From Planoprotostelium fungivorum (taxonomy: Eukaryota; Evosea; Variosea; Cavosteliida; Cavosteliaceae): a DNA stretch of 64,000 nucleotides. Where the stretch lies: NCBI GenBank assembly GCA_003024175.1, contig MDYQ01000372.1:56845-120844 (forward strand), read 5' to 3'. The notes below the pieces were generated by a model. It was not told the origin of the DNA. It did not search any database and saw only the letters and a program-made list of their open reading frames with translations. The translations under genes were made by a program, and so were the position numbers. Of the stretch, positions 41,501-50,957 are shown piece by piece (position 1 is the first letter of the stretch; each line of letters begins with the position of its first letter).

Positions 41501-44039
41501 GCAGGTATAGATCCAGTGCCGGTGCAGTCGAAGACCAAATTTCTCATCTCGTTACCAAAGAGTCCCTTGAAAGCATAACCCAATGGATTAATCCAGTAGA
41601 TCCATCCCAACTGTAACTACGTCAGGCGATGTCTTCTCACTGATCTCCTCACCCATGGATGCATCTTAGGCTCAGGGATGAGATAGCCAGAGTAACACAT
41701 CATCAGGATGAGAACAAAGGTCAAGATCTGTTGGGCGATGTACATAGAGGGAGTTGTGTTTCCGAACAATCTGAACAAGTTGGTCATAGCCATGGCAGTG
41801 ATGAAAACAGTGAAGAGGTGGACGAAGTACTGTCCGGGTGTCTGAGCCAGCTGCCACATGAAGTAGGTGATGATGGTGAACAGAAGAACCTGGACGAACA
41901 AAACAGGTACGTCCGCCACGACTTGAGCGATGTGGTAAGCGGCGGGATGGTACATGGCATAAGACTTGTGCTTCTGCAGTGTTCTCCTTCCCATGAACGA
42001 CATGGGTAGCTCGGCTTGAGATTGCTGTACGAATTAGAGTTGAGAAGGAGTATAATCTCGGACTCACGAAAGCGTTGAAGAGGAGAGAAGAAAAGAGAGC
42101 GCCACCGCGTGAGAACCCTCCAGAGACATCCTTAGCGAGGTTGAGGAAGACACTTCCGTAGATGAGAGCTTGGATGATGACTGAAGAATAACGGACGATG
42201 AGACCGAACTTGTCCATCCAAATCAACTGGAACTGTCTCGTTGACAAGGCTACGACCTGAAGGAAATTGAGAATGTGAATTTGAATGTAGGAAGATGGCT
42301 GACCTGTTCGATGAATCCCACAGTATAGACAGATGACTTTCGAGCTCCCTTTGCCTTCTGTGATTTGACCTCAGCCTTGAAGTCTGCGAACGTGTTGTCC
42401 TGCTTCACTGAGTCCTCAAACTCTTTCTGCTTCGACAGCTGTCGCTTGTACTGCTCAGAGCTGTTATAAGTCAGCATTCATCACATGATCTTCCGCTCTC
42501 ACTTCTTCCAGGCTGCCTCGAATTCGAAAGAAGTCGTTGGCGCCTTGCCCTCAAAGCCGGGTCTGATTTTGCGCTCTTGGAAGTTGGTGACGCCAGTCAA
42601 GAAGTCAGGTGTTGACTTGCGTGGCTCGCATTCGAATCCCAATCCCTGGAAGTACTCTTTCGCTTCGCCCACTGGTCCAAAGTAGATGGCTCTGCCCTTC
42701 TCCATAACTAATACCTGTCATCCTTCATGAGCATCTCCGTTAGTCTACTACAGGATATACATACCTTGTCAAACTGATTGTAGATGTTCTCTGATGCCTG
42801 ATAGAAGGATGCGATTGTCGTCTTCTTCATCGTGTCTGTCATCACTCGCAGTGCCTTCGTGTAGTCCAGTGCTGATGCAGCGTCAAGTCCTCTGGTAGAG
42901 CAGTCCCAACAGCACACGGCAGGTGAGCCTACCATGGCTTCGATGATCGTCATTCTCTTTCTCTCTCCTCCTGACAGTCCTCGCACCCACTCGTTACCCA
43001 CAAACTGCTCTCACGTTACTCTCTCTCTCACTTCATCTCATCGTCCACTGCAGAACACACGACGAAAAGAGAGACAGCTCACCGTGTCAGCTTGCTTCTT
43101 CATCCCAAACATCGTCAGCAGCAAGTCGAACATCTTTGTTCGGAACTCTTTTCTGCTCTCGTCTGGCAGTCTGTTGCCTGGCGTCTTTGTCTTCAGCGTG
43201 AAGTCCAGTGTTTGTCTGACTGTCAGGATGGGAAAGTGTGCATCTTCCTCGGGTATATAGATAGCTTCTCCTGAGTATCTGTCGAACTCTTCTGCTGGCA
43301 CTCCTGCATATGTCACGTTGCCTGTCACATCCACGTAGCCTGCTCTTGCATTGGCGATGAGACGCAGTAGAGTGGAACAGCCAGCGCCTGGTCTGCCGAG
43401 GACGAGCAGCATCTCTCCGTCTATTCGGTCGTCAGAATGAATATTCCGGGGGTCTCTCACCTTTGCAGTACGTGTTCACTTCATGAAGAATGTCGAAGGT
43501 TGCTGCCTTACGATTGGACCTGTTCAACCAATAGAAGGGGTTGACCACATTCAACAAGAAGCGGAAAGGAGTGGTCAAGTCCATCAGAATAGACTCGCTA
43601 GCTCCTGTTCTCTTGTCAATTTCTCTATTTTTACGCTTCCTCACCTTGTCCGACAACAGTCAAGTTGCGCACAGACACACCGACCTTCTTCGTCAAGCTG
43701 CCTGCGTCTGCAGCTATTCTCACAGAATTTTCAAAGTAGCCTCTGAGGTCGAAGGCATCTGGCGCTCCCCTCTCTGCATCGACTGTCGCCTCCTTTCGTC
43801 TGTTGTCTCGGTCAGAAGTTGTCGGGCAACATGATGGAAGATCACCTGTGATCGATAGACTCCCTCGTGAACTCTTCGTTGACTTGTTGGAATTGCCTCA
43901 CGCTCTCTTCTACGTTAATTGGTACCTCCTCCTGAGGTTCATGTTCATCATCGACGTCTGATACGACGACCGACTCGAGGCTGGTCCTCTTGATGGGAGT
44001 GTTGAGTGTCACGAGCTCAAACTGTGGCCTCTCACTCAT
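38533..44039 (-). CDS. Full-size ABCG (PDR-type) ABC transporter
   Basis: ATP-driven exporter with the reverse NBD-TMD-NBD-TMD layout. N-terminus [23 protein letters not shown]1: [20 protein letters not shown] (PDR-type Walker A with Cys), [39 protein letters not shown]1: [40 protein letters not shown]2: [71 protein letters not shown]2: [20 protein letters not shown] and a Cys-rich extracellular loop (CHCTAEDL-type), ending [12 protein letters not shown]1 is degenerate, as in fungal PDR pumps. The part just after NBD2 appears twice (39521-39782 and 39786-40066) around a single N at 39783, so the exon structure here is unreliable. A sister copy lies at the window end. Confidence 0.9.
39521..40066. 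repeat. Duplicated ABCG exon flanking an N (assembly scar or exon duplication)
   Basis: 39521-39782 and 39786-40066 encode the same piece ([20 protein letters not shown] to YYKSVPSCI), with scattered differences ([16 protein letters not shown] against [16 protein letters not shown]). An N base sits between them at 39783. The differences suggest two paralogues or alleles joined end to end. Confidence 0.85.
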
Positions 44040-44567: not shown

Positions 44568-45044
44568 ATGACAGAGATCAAAGATGTCGTCTGTGCAGTG
44601 GTCCATCAACAGAATCCCTTCCGTATACTGTGTACCTTACGCTATCCTGACGCTGCCGCATATCCATCATGTTGGGAGTTCCCAGGTATCATCCTCTATT
44701 CGACTGAGTGCTGAATGCAATCATCAGGTGGGAAAGTCGAGAAAGGAGAGACACACCAACAAGCATTAGAGAGAGAATGTGTCGAGGAATTAGGGGTGCG
44801 GGTGATCGTGGATGATGTGCCCTCTTGCTGGAGTTTCGATGGACGAACGGAGATGAAGGAGGGTGTGAACTATCTATATCGGCTGCACTTTTACTGGGCC
44901 AAATTAGCAGACAACCAACAGGAACCACGCGCACTGGAGAGCCAAGAACTGAGGTGGATGGAGCCCTCTGTCATGTCTTCCGTCACCTTCTGTCCAGGCG
45001 ATGAAGGGTTCATCATCGCCCTCCAGAACATGCGACCGAAATAA
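44568..45044 (+). CDS. MutT-like Nudix hydrolase
   Basis: Hydrolyses nucleoside diphosphate derivatives; by likeness to MutT possibly cleans oxidised dNTPs such as 8-oxo-dGTP. Starts MTEIKDVVCAVVHQQNPFRI; the WEFPG word before the Nudix box is typical of MutT; after one intron (44684-44726) the box reads GGKVEKGETHQQALERECVE followed by ELGV, matching GX5EX7REUXEEXGU with all catalytic glutamates. The C-terminal half has LYRLHFYWAKL and LESQELRWMEPS, as in MutT. An upstream in-frame ATG (44505) would add 21 residues across the E2F-like site and is less likely. Stop TAA lies inside AATAAA. Substrate not provable from sequence. Confidence 0.9.
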
Positions 45045-45396: not shown

Positions 45397-48300
45397 ATGA
45401 GAACGTGCATTCTTCTCATCGCCTGTTTGGCCTGTTGCTTCCTCTCCGTAGATGCGAACACGCTCTCTACACTCAAGAACATCTGGAAGACTCTGAACGG
45501 TAAACGTGAAGACAGTCGAAACGTCCTAAACAGGTATAGGTAGCCCGACTTTGTGGATTGGCAATAATGTGAGACCACATCTCGTTCCGTCTTCCTTCTG
45601 ATTTGCATCAGTTCTGCAACAGCACCGATTTTCAAGGGATCACCTGCAACAATGGAAACGTAATTCAGATCCTCCTATCTCGACCTCTGAGCGGATCTCT
45701 GAACCCCAAAATCGGGGATCTAGATACACTGCAATCTCTGACCATCCAAGGCGCTAATCTGAACGGTCCTATACCCTCTAGCGTAGGAAGTTTGTCTAAT
45801 CTTCTTACTCTCGATCTCGGAGGTAATCGGTTGACTGGCGTCATACCCGAGACGATATGTGAGGTGTGACACGATCGTCTCTCCTTGACTCCATCACAGG
45901 TCAACTTCACCAATTGTCCAATCTTAATCTGAGAGCGAATCGCTTAGAGGGTAACATTCCATCGTGTGTGGGAGGAATGACAAATCTGACGCAAATCTTT
46001 CTGGTGGAGTCTTTGCATCTATCATCTCATCACATCATTCCATAACAGAATTTTAGAACGACAATCAATTCCAAGGCAAAATCTCCAGCTCTATAAGTCT
46101 TCTAGTCAACCTCAAGGTATTCAACGTCAACAACAACCAGCTGACCGGAAATATCCCCAGCGAGATCTCAAACCTGAACGCCCTTCAGATCCTCGATCTG
46201 AGCTGTGAGTCCATCTGCAATGAACCACTGTGGTGACGTTCGTGACACCTGAACTCTACGACAGCCAATGAGCTGAACGGAACGATACCTGATGGCATCG
46301 GATACCTCTCGAATCTGAAGACCCTGTACCTGTGTAGTAACAATCTGACGGGAAGTATTCCCAGCTCTATTGGCAATGTTTCCAATCTACAGTACCTCGA
46401 CCTGAATGGTAACAATCTGACGGGAAGGATTCCAAACTCCATTGGAAATCTAATCTATCTATACACCTTGGACGTCAGTGACAATCAGCTGACTGGAATG
46501 ATTCCGAGCTCCATCGGAAACTTATCATCCATCACTACTATCGATTTGGGAGGCAACGATCTGACCGGTATCATTCCCACCACCATTGGGAACCTGGTCT
46601 ATCTCTCCGTCCTCCTTGTGCCTTCTAATCGCCTCGAGGGCCAGATTCCATCGCAGATCTGCGATATATCAAATCTGGGCTCACTCATTCTGGTGATGTC
46701 ATCGTACCTGTTGCTCGTCTCGGCTGACACACGGCAGGCGGGAAACCTCATCAACGGGAGCATTCCATCTTGTTTGAGTTCGATCCTCACTCCCGATCTG
46801 TATCACTTGGACCTCAGCAACAATCAACTCACAGGATCCATACCCTCATCTCTCGGAGGCCTGTACGATCTGACGAATCTGTATCTGGACAACAACCGAT
46901 TGACCGGCAGTATTCCTAGTTCTTTCTCGAATCTGGACTCACTGGATGTACTGAGACTGCAGGGCAATCAACTGTCAGGATCGATTCCAGATCTGACGAA
47001 GATCTTCGGCGATCATTTCGATCTGGTGAGAGTAAAAAATCGTCGTAATCGCGACACTATCTAAACGGAACATTGCAGTCGAGCAACCAGTTGAATGGAA
47101 GTCTATTGCCAGGGTGGAGCGTTGCGTATCTGAACGTCAGGTATCCACTTCACTTTACCATCCGAAACTAAAAGATGACAGTCACAATCAACTGATGGGA
47201 CGGATACCAATGATCTACTCGATATACATCGATATGTCACACAACAAATTCAATTCGATCGAAAATCATTTCGCTCAGACCGGGATTGCACTCCAATACT
47301 GTGATCTGACATTCAACGAATTTCCGTGTGTTCCCGCTCAGCCATCTGAGAATTGCAACATCACATGTCAGACGTCAGGCGATCAGATTTACAACAGTAA
47401 CAGCAGTCTGACTGTAAATGGAGCTCAGGTCAGTGTATGACGTGCAATGACGTTATCTGATGTGAGACAGGCCATATTAAATCAAGTCACAGTACCCATA
47501 GACCAGGTGAGATTGAGATCAAGAGAGTCTGACCTGTTACAGCTGCCGGGCATTTTATCAGCTCTGATATCAATCCTTCTCAAGAACTCTTCTACCTTTT
47601 CGTTGCGCACGAACGACAGTAATCTGTATGTAAACACCTACAGTGCGACATCAACAGAGAGACTGACAGTGAAACTCCCCAACACGTCCATCTCCGCTGT
47701 CTTTCCATCTTCTTCCATTTCTTCTCGAGGTCTGTTACATCCATCTGTCTGCAACTGGACTGAAGTAGGAACAGACCAAATAGCGGTGGCAGTCTCTATC
47801 ATCAGTTTCAATCCCTTCGCATCTATTGACAACACCACAACGTAAGTATAGTGAATCTATCTGATGTCATATTGACAAGCGACAGGTATGGAGGCGTGAT
47901 AGGAGTGACTGTGTACGATATAGAAGGGGAAGTGAGAGTGACAGGAACAGAGCTGATCAATATTACGATGGGAATGCTTCCTTCCTCCTTTCCTTTCTCT
48001 GCAGGTAAGCGACGTGTGATGTAATGTATGAGATATTTGACAGACGATAGAGGCGGAATGTCTGTGGTGGCAAGAGACAGAAGAGAGATGGCAGAGAGAT
48101 GGATGCAACGCCACACGAAGGGCAGATGACGTGATCGTGTGTCAGTGCAATCACTTGACAAACTTTACTCTTGGCCTCAGACCATCACGAGCCAATGTGC
48201 TGAACGATCTTTCTCCCGTACAACCGAATAACACTCAGAACCCAGCGATAGTCATCGCAGCATGTGCAGCAGGGGGAGGACTGCTGTCGATCATCATCGT

Positions 48301-49488
48301 CTCTCTCATTGTCTTCTTTCTGCTCAGAGGTAGGAGAGGAAGTGTGAGTGTCACATACATCCTTCGTGATGTCTGAGATACCGTAGAACGGAGTGGACGT
48401 GGTCATGCAATCACAGAGCGATGCAAAGATGAAGATCGAGTACGAGAACGTCATACACGACGGAAGGTGCAAGATCTGGAAGGGAAAGCTGGACGAGACG
48501 ACGACCGTAGCCATCAAGAAGGCGAAAGAGCAGAAAAGAGAGAGGGAGTTGATCGTAGAAGCTACGACACTGAAGGTGAATGATGATGTCACTGTGACCT
48601 GCGATGACACCGTCAGGGCATGCATCATCCCAACATCGTCATGTACATCGGTCAGGACACCGCAGGTACTTCTCTTGTCACTTGCGGTTGAGAGGGAAGG
48701 CTGACAGTATGCAGAAGGGTACTTTGTGATGGAACACATGAACGGGGGCAGCTTGCAGCAGTACATGACAAGTCAAGCACTGGACACTTCTTCTGTTCTT
48801 GTCATGTGAGGGGCAAAGAAGAATCAACGAATAATTATTGTAGAGCGGCAGATGTGGCTAGAGGACTATCTTATCTGACGTCCATCAATATGACTCACAT
48901 TCGATTATCACCTGAGAAGGTGAGACATCACATACAAACTATCAATTCATATCATCAGATATTGCTCTCCATCACCGACGGAGAAGTATCCGCAAAAATT
49001 GGTGGTATGATTCACGTATATTGTATCGATAGCCCTGCGAACCCTCACAGCTTTGGTGTCTATACGGTGAGGACAAGCAGTGAGATCGCTCTGACGTCAT
49101 ATTGACAGGCACCTGAAGTAATAGAGAATGGAACGTATCAGACCAGCTCGAGTGTGTGGAGTTTCGGTGTTTTGCTGTTCGCCATGGCTAAGAATGATGC
49201 AAATGTATATGATAGACGAGATGAGAAACAGGTGAATGCGCACCATCGTGGCTGACCTGATCGATTGATACGTAGATGGTGAAGAGAACGAAGAGTGGAG
49301 CGCAGAGCTTCGTCGTCATAGAAGCAGATGAGATGATAGCCACACTGATCATGCAGTGCACGAGGAGAGAAGTCGAGCTGAGACTGGAAATACAACACGT
49401 CGTGGGAAGGCTGACAACAGAAGTTAGAAGAGAGGAAGGAGGATGCAGTCACGGCGGTAAAGACACATATGGCACGATAGATTTGTGA
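45397..49488 (+). CDS. LRR - GPS - transmembrane - pseudokinase receptor
   Basis: Type I receptor. Kozak-like GCCACCATG and signal peptide MRTCILLIACLACCFLSVDA. The ectodomain has plant-type LRRs (LxxLxLxxNxLxGxIPxxIGxL) repeated about fifteen times from 45.7 to 47.0 kb, followed by a Cys-rich cap (CDLTFNEFPCVPAQPSENC). A beta-rich region (AVAVSIISFNPF, GGVIGVTVYDIEGEVRVTGT) leads into a textbook GPCR-proteolysis-site motif at about 48043-48172: CLWWQETEERW, DGCNAT, VIVCQCNHLTNFTLG, with four Cys, the Trp residues and the HLT cleavage site. Then a TM helix (SIIIVSLIVFFLL) and a kinase-like domain with VAIKKAKE (ATP lysine), MEHMNGGSLQQYM and APEVIENGTYQTSSSVWSFG. HRD is replaced by HIR (THIRLSPEK) and DFG by GGM (SAKIGGMI), and the Gly loop is absent: a pseudokinase. 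Many short introns. Confidence 0.85.
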
Positions 49489-49706: not shown

Positions 49707-50957
49707 ATGATGGACCATCCCATGGCGATCGGCGCACAACATCACGAGAGATTCGCAATAGGGGAGAGGATCTTATGTTTCAATAATGATCTTCTTTATG
49801 AAGCCACCATTATGGGCATCGAACAGAAGGATGGGAAGGAGAGCTACCAAATCCATTACGAAGGATGGGATGAAAAGTAAGATGAACGATGTATTTGTCT
49901 TTGAGACATATCACCGACACAACGCAGGAGAGATGAATGGGTTAACATTGAAAAACTTAAGAAGCTCAATAAAGAAAACCTGAGAATGCAAGCTTTTTTA
50001 AGGGCAGAGGTAAAGCAACAAGCACCAAAAGGTAACACCTCATCTCAATCACTGCGCTGACACCATGTGAGCTCCAACGCCGATCAAATCACAAGTAACA
50101 ACGAAGAAGAAAACGAAAGTGAGCACTCTCTGAACTCTCACTCAATAATCATGTCGAACCACAGCAGGACCAATTTGAGATCGTACTCCCAACACAAATC
50201 AGAGAGAGGTTAGTCGAAGATCAGAGAATGATCAACAAGAAATTTGTGAGTCGAACCGAGATCATCTCGATGGACCGAATCTATCTTAACTTAAGTGACA
50301 AAAGACAGCTGACAGAGGTTCCACGCACACCCAACATCGAACAGATCATCGGAGACTTCACGAAAGATTATTTTGCCGTCATGCAAGTCATCGACACCTA
50401 TCCCACAGAGAAGAAGAACGAGATCCTCTTTAATCTCAAGTTCACTTATAATCCATTCATCGCTCAAAAGGTGACACGACATGACCGATGATCGTGCGAT
50501 CGATGTGATCTCCCTCCTCATCCAATCAGATTGCGGACGATCTCATTCGATTCTTCGATGAAATCTGTGGAAACGTACTGGTCTACCGTTTCGAGAGGAA
50601 GCAATTCACGTGAGAGTCACAGAGGCCTCCCCTACTCATTCATCTGCAGCACCGCCACGAAACTGTCCGCTTCGTTGTCCCAAGTGTACGGAATTGAATA
50701 CCTGATGAGATTTTTGGGTGAGCGTGTCGTGTGTGTCAGGGCTGAAGAGAACAGTCAAGATTCCACTCTTTATCGATCGAGCCGAACTAGAAGAAGACGC
50801 ACTCCTCCACACAAAGTGAGACGATGGAGAGAGGAAGACTCACGAACGCAGACACGTCCTTCTGTCCCTGACCGAATTCATCGCCAGAAATCCCACGCAG
50901 TATCCATCGCATCACGAGGCATGTTCAGTAGAATACAGAGACTCCGTCCCCTCCTAA
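49707..50957 (+). CDS. MORF4L1: MRG15/Eaf3-like chromatin protein (chromodomain + MRG)
   Basis: Subunit of NuA4-type acetyltransferase and Sin3/Rpd3-type deacetylase complexes; the chromodomain reads methylated H3K36. Chromo barrel: FAIGERILCFNNDLLYEATI, KESYQIHYEGWDEK, then across an intron WDEWVNIEKLKKLNKENL. A basic linker (KKKTK) follows, then the MRG domain: EIVLPTQIRERLVEDQRMIN, VPRTPNIEQIIGDFTKDYF, IADDLIRFFDEICGNVLVYR, FERKQF, SLSQVYGIEYLMRFL, RAELEEDALLHTK. Ends YRDSVPS. Several introns in the linker are small and their exact edges are uncertain. Its stop lies only 5 bases from the stop of the convergent gene. Confidence 0.85.

Follow-up and report, generated by a model that had tools for sequence, protein, structure and literature searches.

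The window analysed here is a 64,000-nucleotide stretch of the Planoprotostelium fungivorum contig MDYQ01000372.1, and it contains one forward-strand gene predicted to encode a single-pass receptor in which plant-type leucine-rich repeats (LRRs), a GAIN-like domain with a G protein-coupled receptor (GPCR) proteolysis site (GPS) at its end, one transmembrane (TM) helix, and a catalytically degenerate kinase domain follow one another (Table 1). In our hand-made model, 20 exons encode 1,083 amino acids (aa) in one frame, and all 19 introns are GT-AG introns of 36–60 bp. The span proposed by the initial annotation was exact, with the ATG at its first base (45397) and the stop codon ending at its last (49488). 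A custom gene finder returned a single gene with the identical start and stop and recovered 26/40 exon boundaries, although its splice-site weights had been chosen after these introns were seen, which makes it only partly independent of the hand-made model. With tblastn, all 20 exons have a match in each of the three paralogs found on contig C250. For exons 9, 10, 12, and 14–20, the matches stop at the same AG/GT (or stop codon) in all three paralogs; the boundaries of LRR exons 5–8 are ambiguous, as the repeats cross-match. This exon-by-exon correspondence makes separate transcripts unlikely and agrees with the initial annotation, which had placed LRR, GPS, and kinase in one gene. The architecture and the family membership described below are, as read from sequence, close to certain.

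Table 1. Features of the receptor gene in window coordinates
Feature	Position	Strand	Evidence
Whole receptor gene	45397–49488	+	Hand-made model, gene finder, exon matches to three paralogs
Signal-peptide-like N terminus, aa 1–24	45397–45468	+	Hydropathy 2.07
LRR ectodomain	45612–47428	+	Pfam LRR_1 6.1e-45, LRR_8 2.6e-39; motif count
GAIN-like domain, exons 10–13, aa ~553–745, GPS at its end	47471–48169	+	Family profile A1
GPS motif, four Cys, CNHLTNF, aa 706–743	48056–48169	+	PF01825, 44.1 bits (genome search), 1.2e-9 (spliced protein)
HL|T cleavage tripeptide, aa 738–740, predicted cut after aa 739	48152–48160	+	Sequence
Single TM helix segment, aa 767–800	48239–48340	+	Hydropathy 2.63
Pseudokinase domain (predicted) and tail, exons 14–20	48387–49488	+	PF07714 PK_Tyr_Ser-Thr, 2.5e-33 (spliced protein) and 1e-34
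C-terminal DTYGTIDL, terminal-tyrosine motif	49462–49485	+	Family tail comparison

The ectodomain opens with a cysteine-bearing N cap, followed by plant-type repeats with 14 NxLxGxIP-type motifs between aa 116 and 479. Profile A1, which was built from ten family GAIN segments whose rows all have the same GPS residues (Cys, Trp, HLT, and Phe), matched the adhesion-GPCR structures ADGRG2 (5.6e-14), ADGRG6 (1.5e-13), ADGRG1 (1.7e-12), and ADGRB3/BAI3 (1.7e-7). The best match spans profile positions 54–172 of 176, which correspond to the pre-GPS region plus the GPS. The GPS segment alone matches the GAIN structure of ADGRF1 (phmmer, 4.9e-6), and the window gene has the four Cys, two Trp, and HL|S/T expected of a GPS. 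The presence of a GAIN-B region upstream of the GPS is supported at the level of sequence by these comparisons, and the GPS with its cysteines and HLT tripeptide, which the initial annotation had taken as a genuine GPS/GAIN, holds up. Self-cleavage at HL|T is likely. The initial annotation had also placed a single TM helix directly after the GPS: there is one strong TM helix, but about 27 residues separate it from the GPS. Two weaker hydrophobic segments (aa 310–329 and 558–576) lie within the LRR and GAIN parts. Membership in the adhesion GPCRs and in the polycystin-1/PKD1-like proteins was considered and rejected, since what comes after the GPS is a single TM helix and then a kinase, in place of a seven-transmembrane (7TM) domain or a multi-pass channel-like region. 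A genome search for 7tm_2 gave no match, but the controls were equally silent, so that this search is uninformative on other genes.

The kinase-like domain matches PK_Tyr_Ser-Thr over aa 829–1058 of the spliced protein, and its closest solved relatives are BMX and the Src family (from 2.3e-17). Aligned to solved kinases, it keeps VAIK, the alpha-C Glu, and APE, and is degenerate elsewhere: HRD reads HIR, the catalytic-loop Asn is replaced by Lys, DFG has lost its Asp (KIGGM), DVW reads SVW, and the Gly loop is degenerate. The initial annotation had called VAIK and APE kept and HRD, DFG, the DVW aspartate, and the Gly loop lost, and had described a single-pass LRR receptor with a degenerate kinase, a description that Pfam, hydropathy, and the kinase alignment all bear out. 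The protein runs from LRR through a single TM helix to a kinase fold, in that order, and lacks the catalytic HRD and DFG aspartates. The domain is, from these residues, very probably a pseudokinase.

The same genome (36.9 Mb) has at least 150 GPS matches over the Pfam cut-off, from 176 candidates, a figure that translates only loosely into genes because some contigs are near-duplicates. Of the 150 listed, 63 have another GPS within 15 kb. We examined 42 further stretches around GPS matches, including a systematic sample of 20 loci (every sixth GPS rank from 30 on; rank 102 was dropped because it lies at a contig edge). All 20 have HLT and a downstream kinase-like domain. Eighteen show a clear TM helix, which in one further locus (L033) falls into two pieces and in another (L045) is illegible. 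Ten proteins from this sample, those with legible models, were submitted to Pfam, and all ten have GPS and PK_Tyr_Ser-Thr over the cut-off. The ectodomains vary. For 38 of the 150 GPS matches, an LRR_8 match lies on the same strand no more than 4.5 kb upstream (compared with 10 downstream and one on the other strand), which is a lower bound, as the linkage uses the best 150 of 1179 LRR_8 candidates. One locus (L010) combines LRR with TIG (3.4e-7, over the cut-off), another (L025) has a B_lectin-like segment below the cut-off (22.6 vs 32.4 bits), and a Pfam scan of the predicted ectodomain of a third (L009) gave no match. The layout of the family is, with very high confidence from sequence, a variable ectodomain (here LRR), GAIN/GPS, one TM helix, a pseudokinase, and a terminal tyrosine. 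The initial annotation knew of no described family with this architecture; none was found in the literature searched, yet the receptor is far from alone. One sampled GPS (L046, C61:40959) has lost a Cys and is interrupted by an in-frame stop; it is either a pseudogene or an assembly error. Scanning prokaryotic genome contigs with the GAIN alignment gave five pattern matches, none of them confirmed, and scanning viral contigs gave no match.

Kinase motifs were tallied over 46 GPS loci, two of which are unreadable at HRD; L048 is absent from the tally because it was not anchored. Of the readable loci, 6/44 keep the HRD Asp and 16/44 the DFG Asp, whereas the VAIK Lys is kept in 29/38, the alpha-C Glu in 32/35, and the APE Glu in 37/39. 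Because the latter residues are mostly retained and the two aspartates mostly gone, the fold appears to have been kept and catalysis lost. One large subclade also lacks the VAIK Lys. Both aspartates are kept in 3/44 loci, two of which are nearly identical copies whose VAIK Lys is unreadable. A three-frame motif scan downstream of 47 GPS loci found catalytic-loop-like strings in eight, of which four were judged to be in place (on C116, C394, C226, and C234) and four lie in another frame; DFG-like strings were found in 2/47. Intron read-through was considered as a cause of the missing HRD and was rejected, since this frame-independent scan finds few loops. Loci with tyrosine-kinase-like loops (HCD/HTD...ARN) cluster in a FastTree tree (unrooted, then midpoint-rooted), which suggests that the family descends from tyrosine-kinase-like enzymes.

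Kinases without a listed GPS present a different picture. Both aspartates are kept in 9/10 control kinases; the tenth, L054 (C27:45558), is degenerate (HQR, NFG). We also fetched six GPS-less LRR-plus-kinase loci, two of which (L061 and L063) were set aside because no TM helix was seen. The four GPS-less LRR-TM kinases (L062, L064, L065, and L066) all keep the HRD-type Asp in tyrosine-kinase-like loops such as HRDLAVRN and HRDLGARN. Pfam finds LRR and kinase in L065 and L066 and LRR in the N-terminal part of L064. These four are natural candidates for active partners of the GPS-bearing receptors. As separate observations, the stretch between LRR and TM helix in the four looks SEA-like by eye, and L061, one of the two loci set aside, also lacks the HRD Asp.

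Comparison of the window gene with its three C250 paralogs (Nei-Gojobori) gave ratios of nonsynonymous to synonymous substitution (dN/dS) of 0.27, 0.22, and 0.25 for the kinase domain, 0.24, 0.17, and 0.19 for GAIN, 0.39, 0.25, and 0.24 for GPS plus TM, and 0.24, 0.27, and 0.35 for LRR, the last with dS above 1. The degenerate kinase domain is under purifying selection, and pseudogene status of the window gene was rejected on these ratios. In combining a kinase fold, absent catalytic residues, and maintenance by selection, the domain looks like a receptor pseudokinase.

The last kinase exon could be read to the stop in 34/46 loci, and 12/46 gave no C-lobe fragment. A Tyr falls within the last ten residues in 27 of these 34 tails (24/30 distinct tails), compared with 436/1834 other stop-ended fragments, and 17 of the 30 distinct tails fit Y-x-x-hydrophobic/Gln. 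The genome also has 79 SH2 matches, a large phosphotyrosine-reading set; for scale, the accessible text of PMC4053784 counts 22 protein tyrosine kinases and 48 SH2 proteins in Acanthamoeba.

We read the window gene as a member of a large receptor family that signals via a GAIN cut, a pseudokinase paired with an active kinase, and a tail phosphorylated on tyrosine, and we put the probability of this reading at roughly 0.6. The GAIN domain would cut itself at HL|T during maturation, and the two pieces would stay attached; GAIN domains elsewhere self-cleave into two fragments that remain bound, with shedding in some receptors, according to the portion of PMC13197933 available. Ligand binding to the LRR part, or tension on it, may then alter or release the ectodomain, and the membrane stub with its dead kinase would serve as an allosteric or docking subunit in the manner of HER3. 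The tethered-agonist route of adhesion GPCRs cannot apply as such, because there is no 7TM domain. An active tyrosine-kinase-like partner, for example one of the GPS-less LRR-TM kinases described above, would join the stub, and the tail tyrosine would be phosphorylated and then read by SH2 proteins. The partner-plus-phosphotyrosine step is drawn by analogy and is tentative, at rather less than an even bet.

Several observations weigh against this reading. Within the GAIN segment the GPS is the sole Pfam match, even at an E-value of 10, and the HLT in 20/20 sampled loci is partly a product of a GPS search that selects intact motifs. The locus C234:100249 (L045), the only tallied one to combine the Lys with both aspartates, keeps VAIK Lys, HCD, and DYG and possibly encodes a live kinase. 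The ten control kinases and the GPS-less LRR-plus-kinase loci were both picked from high Pfam scorers, which biases them toward intact domains, and one of the ten control kinases is degenerate. Survival of the VAIK Lys and the alpha-C Glu in the window gene makes nucleotide binding possible. For the tail, 6/30 distinct sequences have no terminal tyrosine, and the binomial p-values for its enrichment (1.3e-10, and 4.1e-7 against internal kinase 10-mers) are overstated because tail and motif counts run over related sequences.

Among the alternatives, the one with most in its favour, though we consider it unlikely, is that the GAIN cut is constitutive processing only, for folding, surface delivery, or shedding of a soluble LRR fragment that serves as decoy or adhesin, with the pseudokinase used for trafficking or for dominant-negative damping of active receptors and with no signal triggered by release. 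GAIN cleavage does occur during maturation, and some adhesion-GPCR ectodomains are shed (PMC13197933, in the part accessible); a dead kinase beside live GPS-less LRR-TM kinases would also fit a competitor. The terminal tyrosine of 24/30 distinct tails and the purifying selection on the kinase domain suggest instead an outgoing signal, without proving one. A less probable explanation is that the kinase domain still works in an unusual way, by binding nucleotide through the VAIK Lys and the alpha-C Glu or by weak catalysis without HRD and DFG. Both residues are retained in the window gene and in most readable loci (29/38 and 32/35, respectively), but the HRD Asp is lost in 38/44 and the DFG Asp in 28/44, the window gene lacks both aspartates and has a degenerate Gly loop, and the VAIK Lys is also gone from one large subclade.

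The two remaining explanations question the gene or the family itself. It is very improbable that the family is decaying, with many copies pseudogenes and kinase residues lost by neglect: the in-frame stop in the one sampled GPS on C61 and the wide variation of the kinase motifs would fit decay, but dN/dS is 0.17–0.39 across all compared regions and 0.22–0.27 in the kinase domain, the exons are open, and splice sites, tail, and HLT are conserved. More remote still is the explanation that LRR, GPS, and kinase are separate genes that merely adjoin one another. The unity of the gene is read from DNA, and to that extent this explanation has a foothold; against it stand one open spliced frame, a gene finder that joins the parts, the same order in three paralogs, and the succession of GPS, TM-side exons, and kinase in all 20 sampled loci. 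We rejected it on the match of all 20 exons in the three paralogs.

HER3/ErbB3 is a single-pass receptor with an impaired kinase and a tail tyrosine. The window receptor resembles it and other receptor pseudokinases in these respects and in the partner-dependent signalling proposed here, but HER3 has no GAIN/GPS and a different ectodomain. With adhesion GPCRs it shares GAIN-B, a GPS with HL|T, the Cys pattern, the post-cut TxF strand, and variable ectodomains that include LRRs; unlike them, it has one TM helix rather than seven, an intracellular predicted pseudokinase, and about 27 residues between GPS and membrane. Polycystin-1/PKD1-like and sea urchin REJ proteins are multi-pass and have no kinase. 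They resemble the window receptor as surface proteins outside the adhesion GPCRs that carry GAIN. The genome has seven PKD_channel matches, none of them within 20 kb of a listed GPS. The GAIN domains of polycystin-1/PKD1-like and REJ proteins undergo autoproteolysis, according to the accessible sections of PMC13197933. Plant LRR receptor-like kinases, including LRR pseudokinases, have plant-type LRRs, one TM helix, and a C-terminal kinase fold in common with the window receptor, but its GAIN/GPS lies between LRR and TM helix and its kinase domain is nearest to BMX and Src-family structures. Within the genome itself, the LRR-TM kinases L062, L064, L065, and L066 have the same LRR, TM, and kinase layout; in these no GPS was found, and the HRD-type loop is kept in all four.

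LRR-TM-kinase proteins are known from Amoebozoa and other protists (PMC13091385, accessible part). The GPCR-TKL/K and GPCR-TK fusions (GPCRs fused to tyrosine-kinase-like or tyrosine kinases) of choanoflagellates, oomycetes, and amoebozoans also join a surface receptor to a kinase, but they are 7TM proteins, and no GAIN-bearing pseudokinases are reported among them in the available text (PMC12716839). That 2025 survey, in its accessible part, finds that the complexity of the adhesion-GPCR N-terminal fragment, GAIN included, appears restricted to holozoans, and that non-holozoans encode GAIN in other genes. In the portion available, PMC10445921 reports no GAIN in the family 2 GPCRs of Amoebozoa, Protostelium among them; non-GPCR proteins lie outside its question. 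No description of single-pass kinases with GPS/GAIN was found in a literature search that covered few subscription papers and did not extend to eukaryotic protein databases, and within that scope the GPS-kinase receptor family is undescribed.

Nearly all work on GAIN self-cleavage concerns adhesion GPCRs and polycystins, in which the 7TM or channel part obscures the role of the cut itself. A family that keeps GAIN and HL|T without 7TM, on a single helix and with a dead kinase, would isolate that question. The at least 150 GPS matches, the sampled ones on one-pass receptors, are one form that the GAIN genes of non-holozoans can take, and within this GPS family pseudokinases seem to be the rule, beside live GPS-less cousins. 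We would go further only with reserve, at just short of even odds: the family may be a separate class of self-cleaving GAIN receptors without 7TM, expanded to about 150 genes in a single microbial eukaryote. Selection would have kept the cut site and let kinase catalysis go, a pseudokinase docking subunit would be gated directly by the ectodomain tethered through GAIN, and the exchange of ectodomains (LRR, LRR with TIG, perhaps lectin) would provide a large recognition repertoire.

The receptor gene is flanked in the window by other coding sequence. Upstream lie a NUDIX domain exon on the forward strand (44715–45044; Pfam, 4.1e-10) and ABC transporter exons on the reverse strand (43038–43897; ABC_tran 1.5e-8, ABC_trans_N 2e-6). 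Downstream is a forward-strand MRG domain exon (50123–50491; 9.8e-6), preceded by an exon that looks chromodomain-like by eye only.

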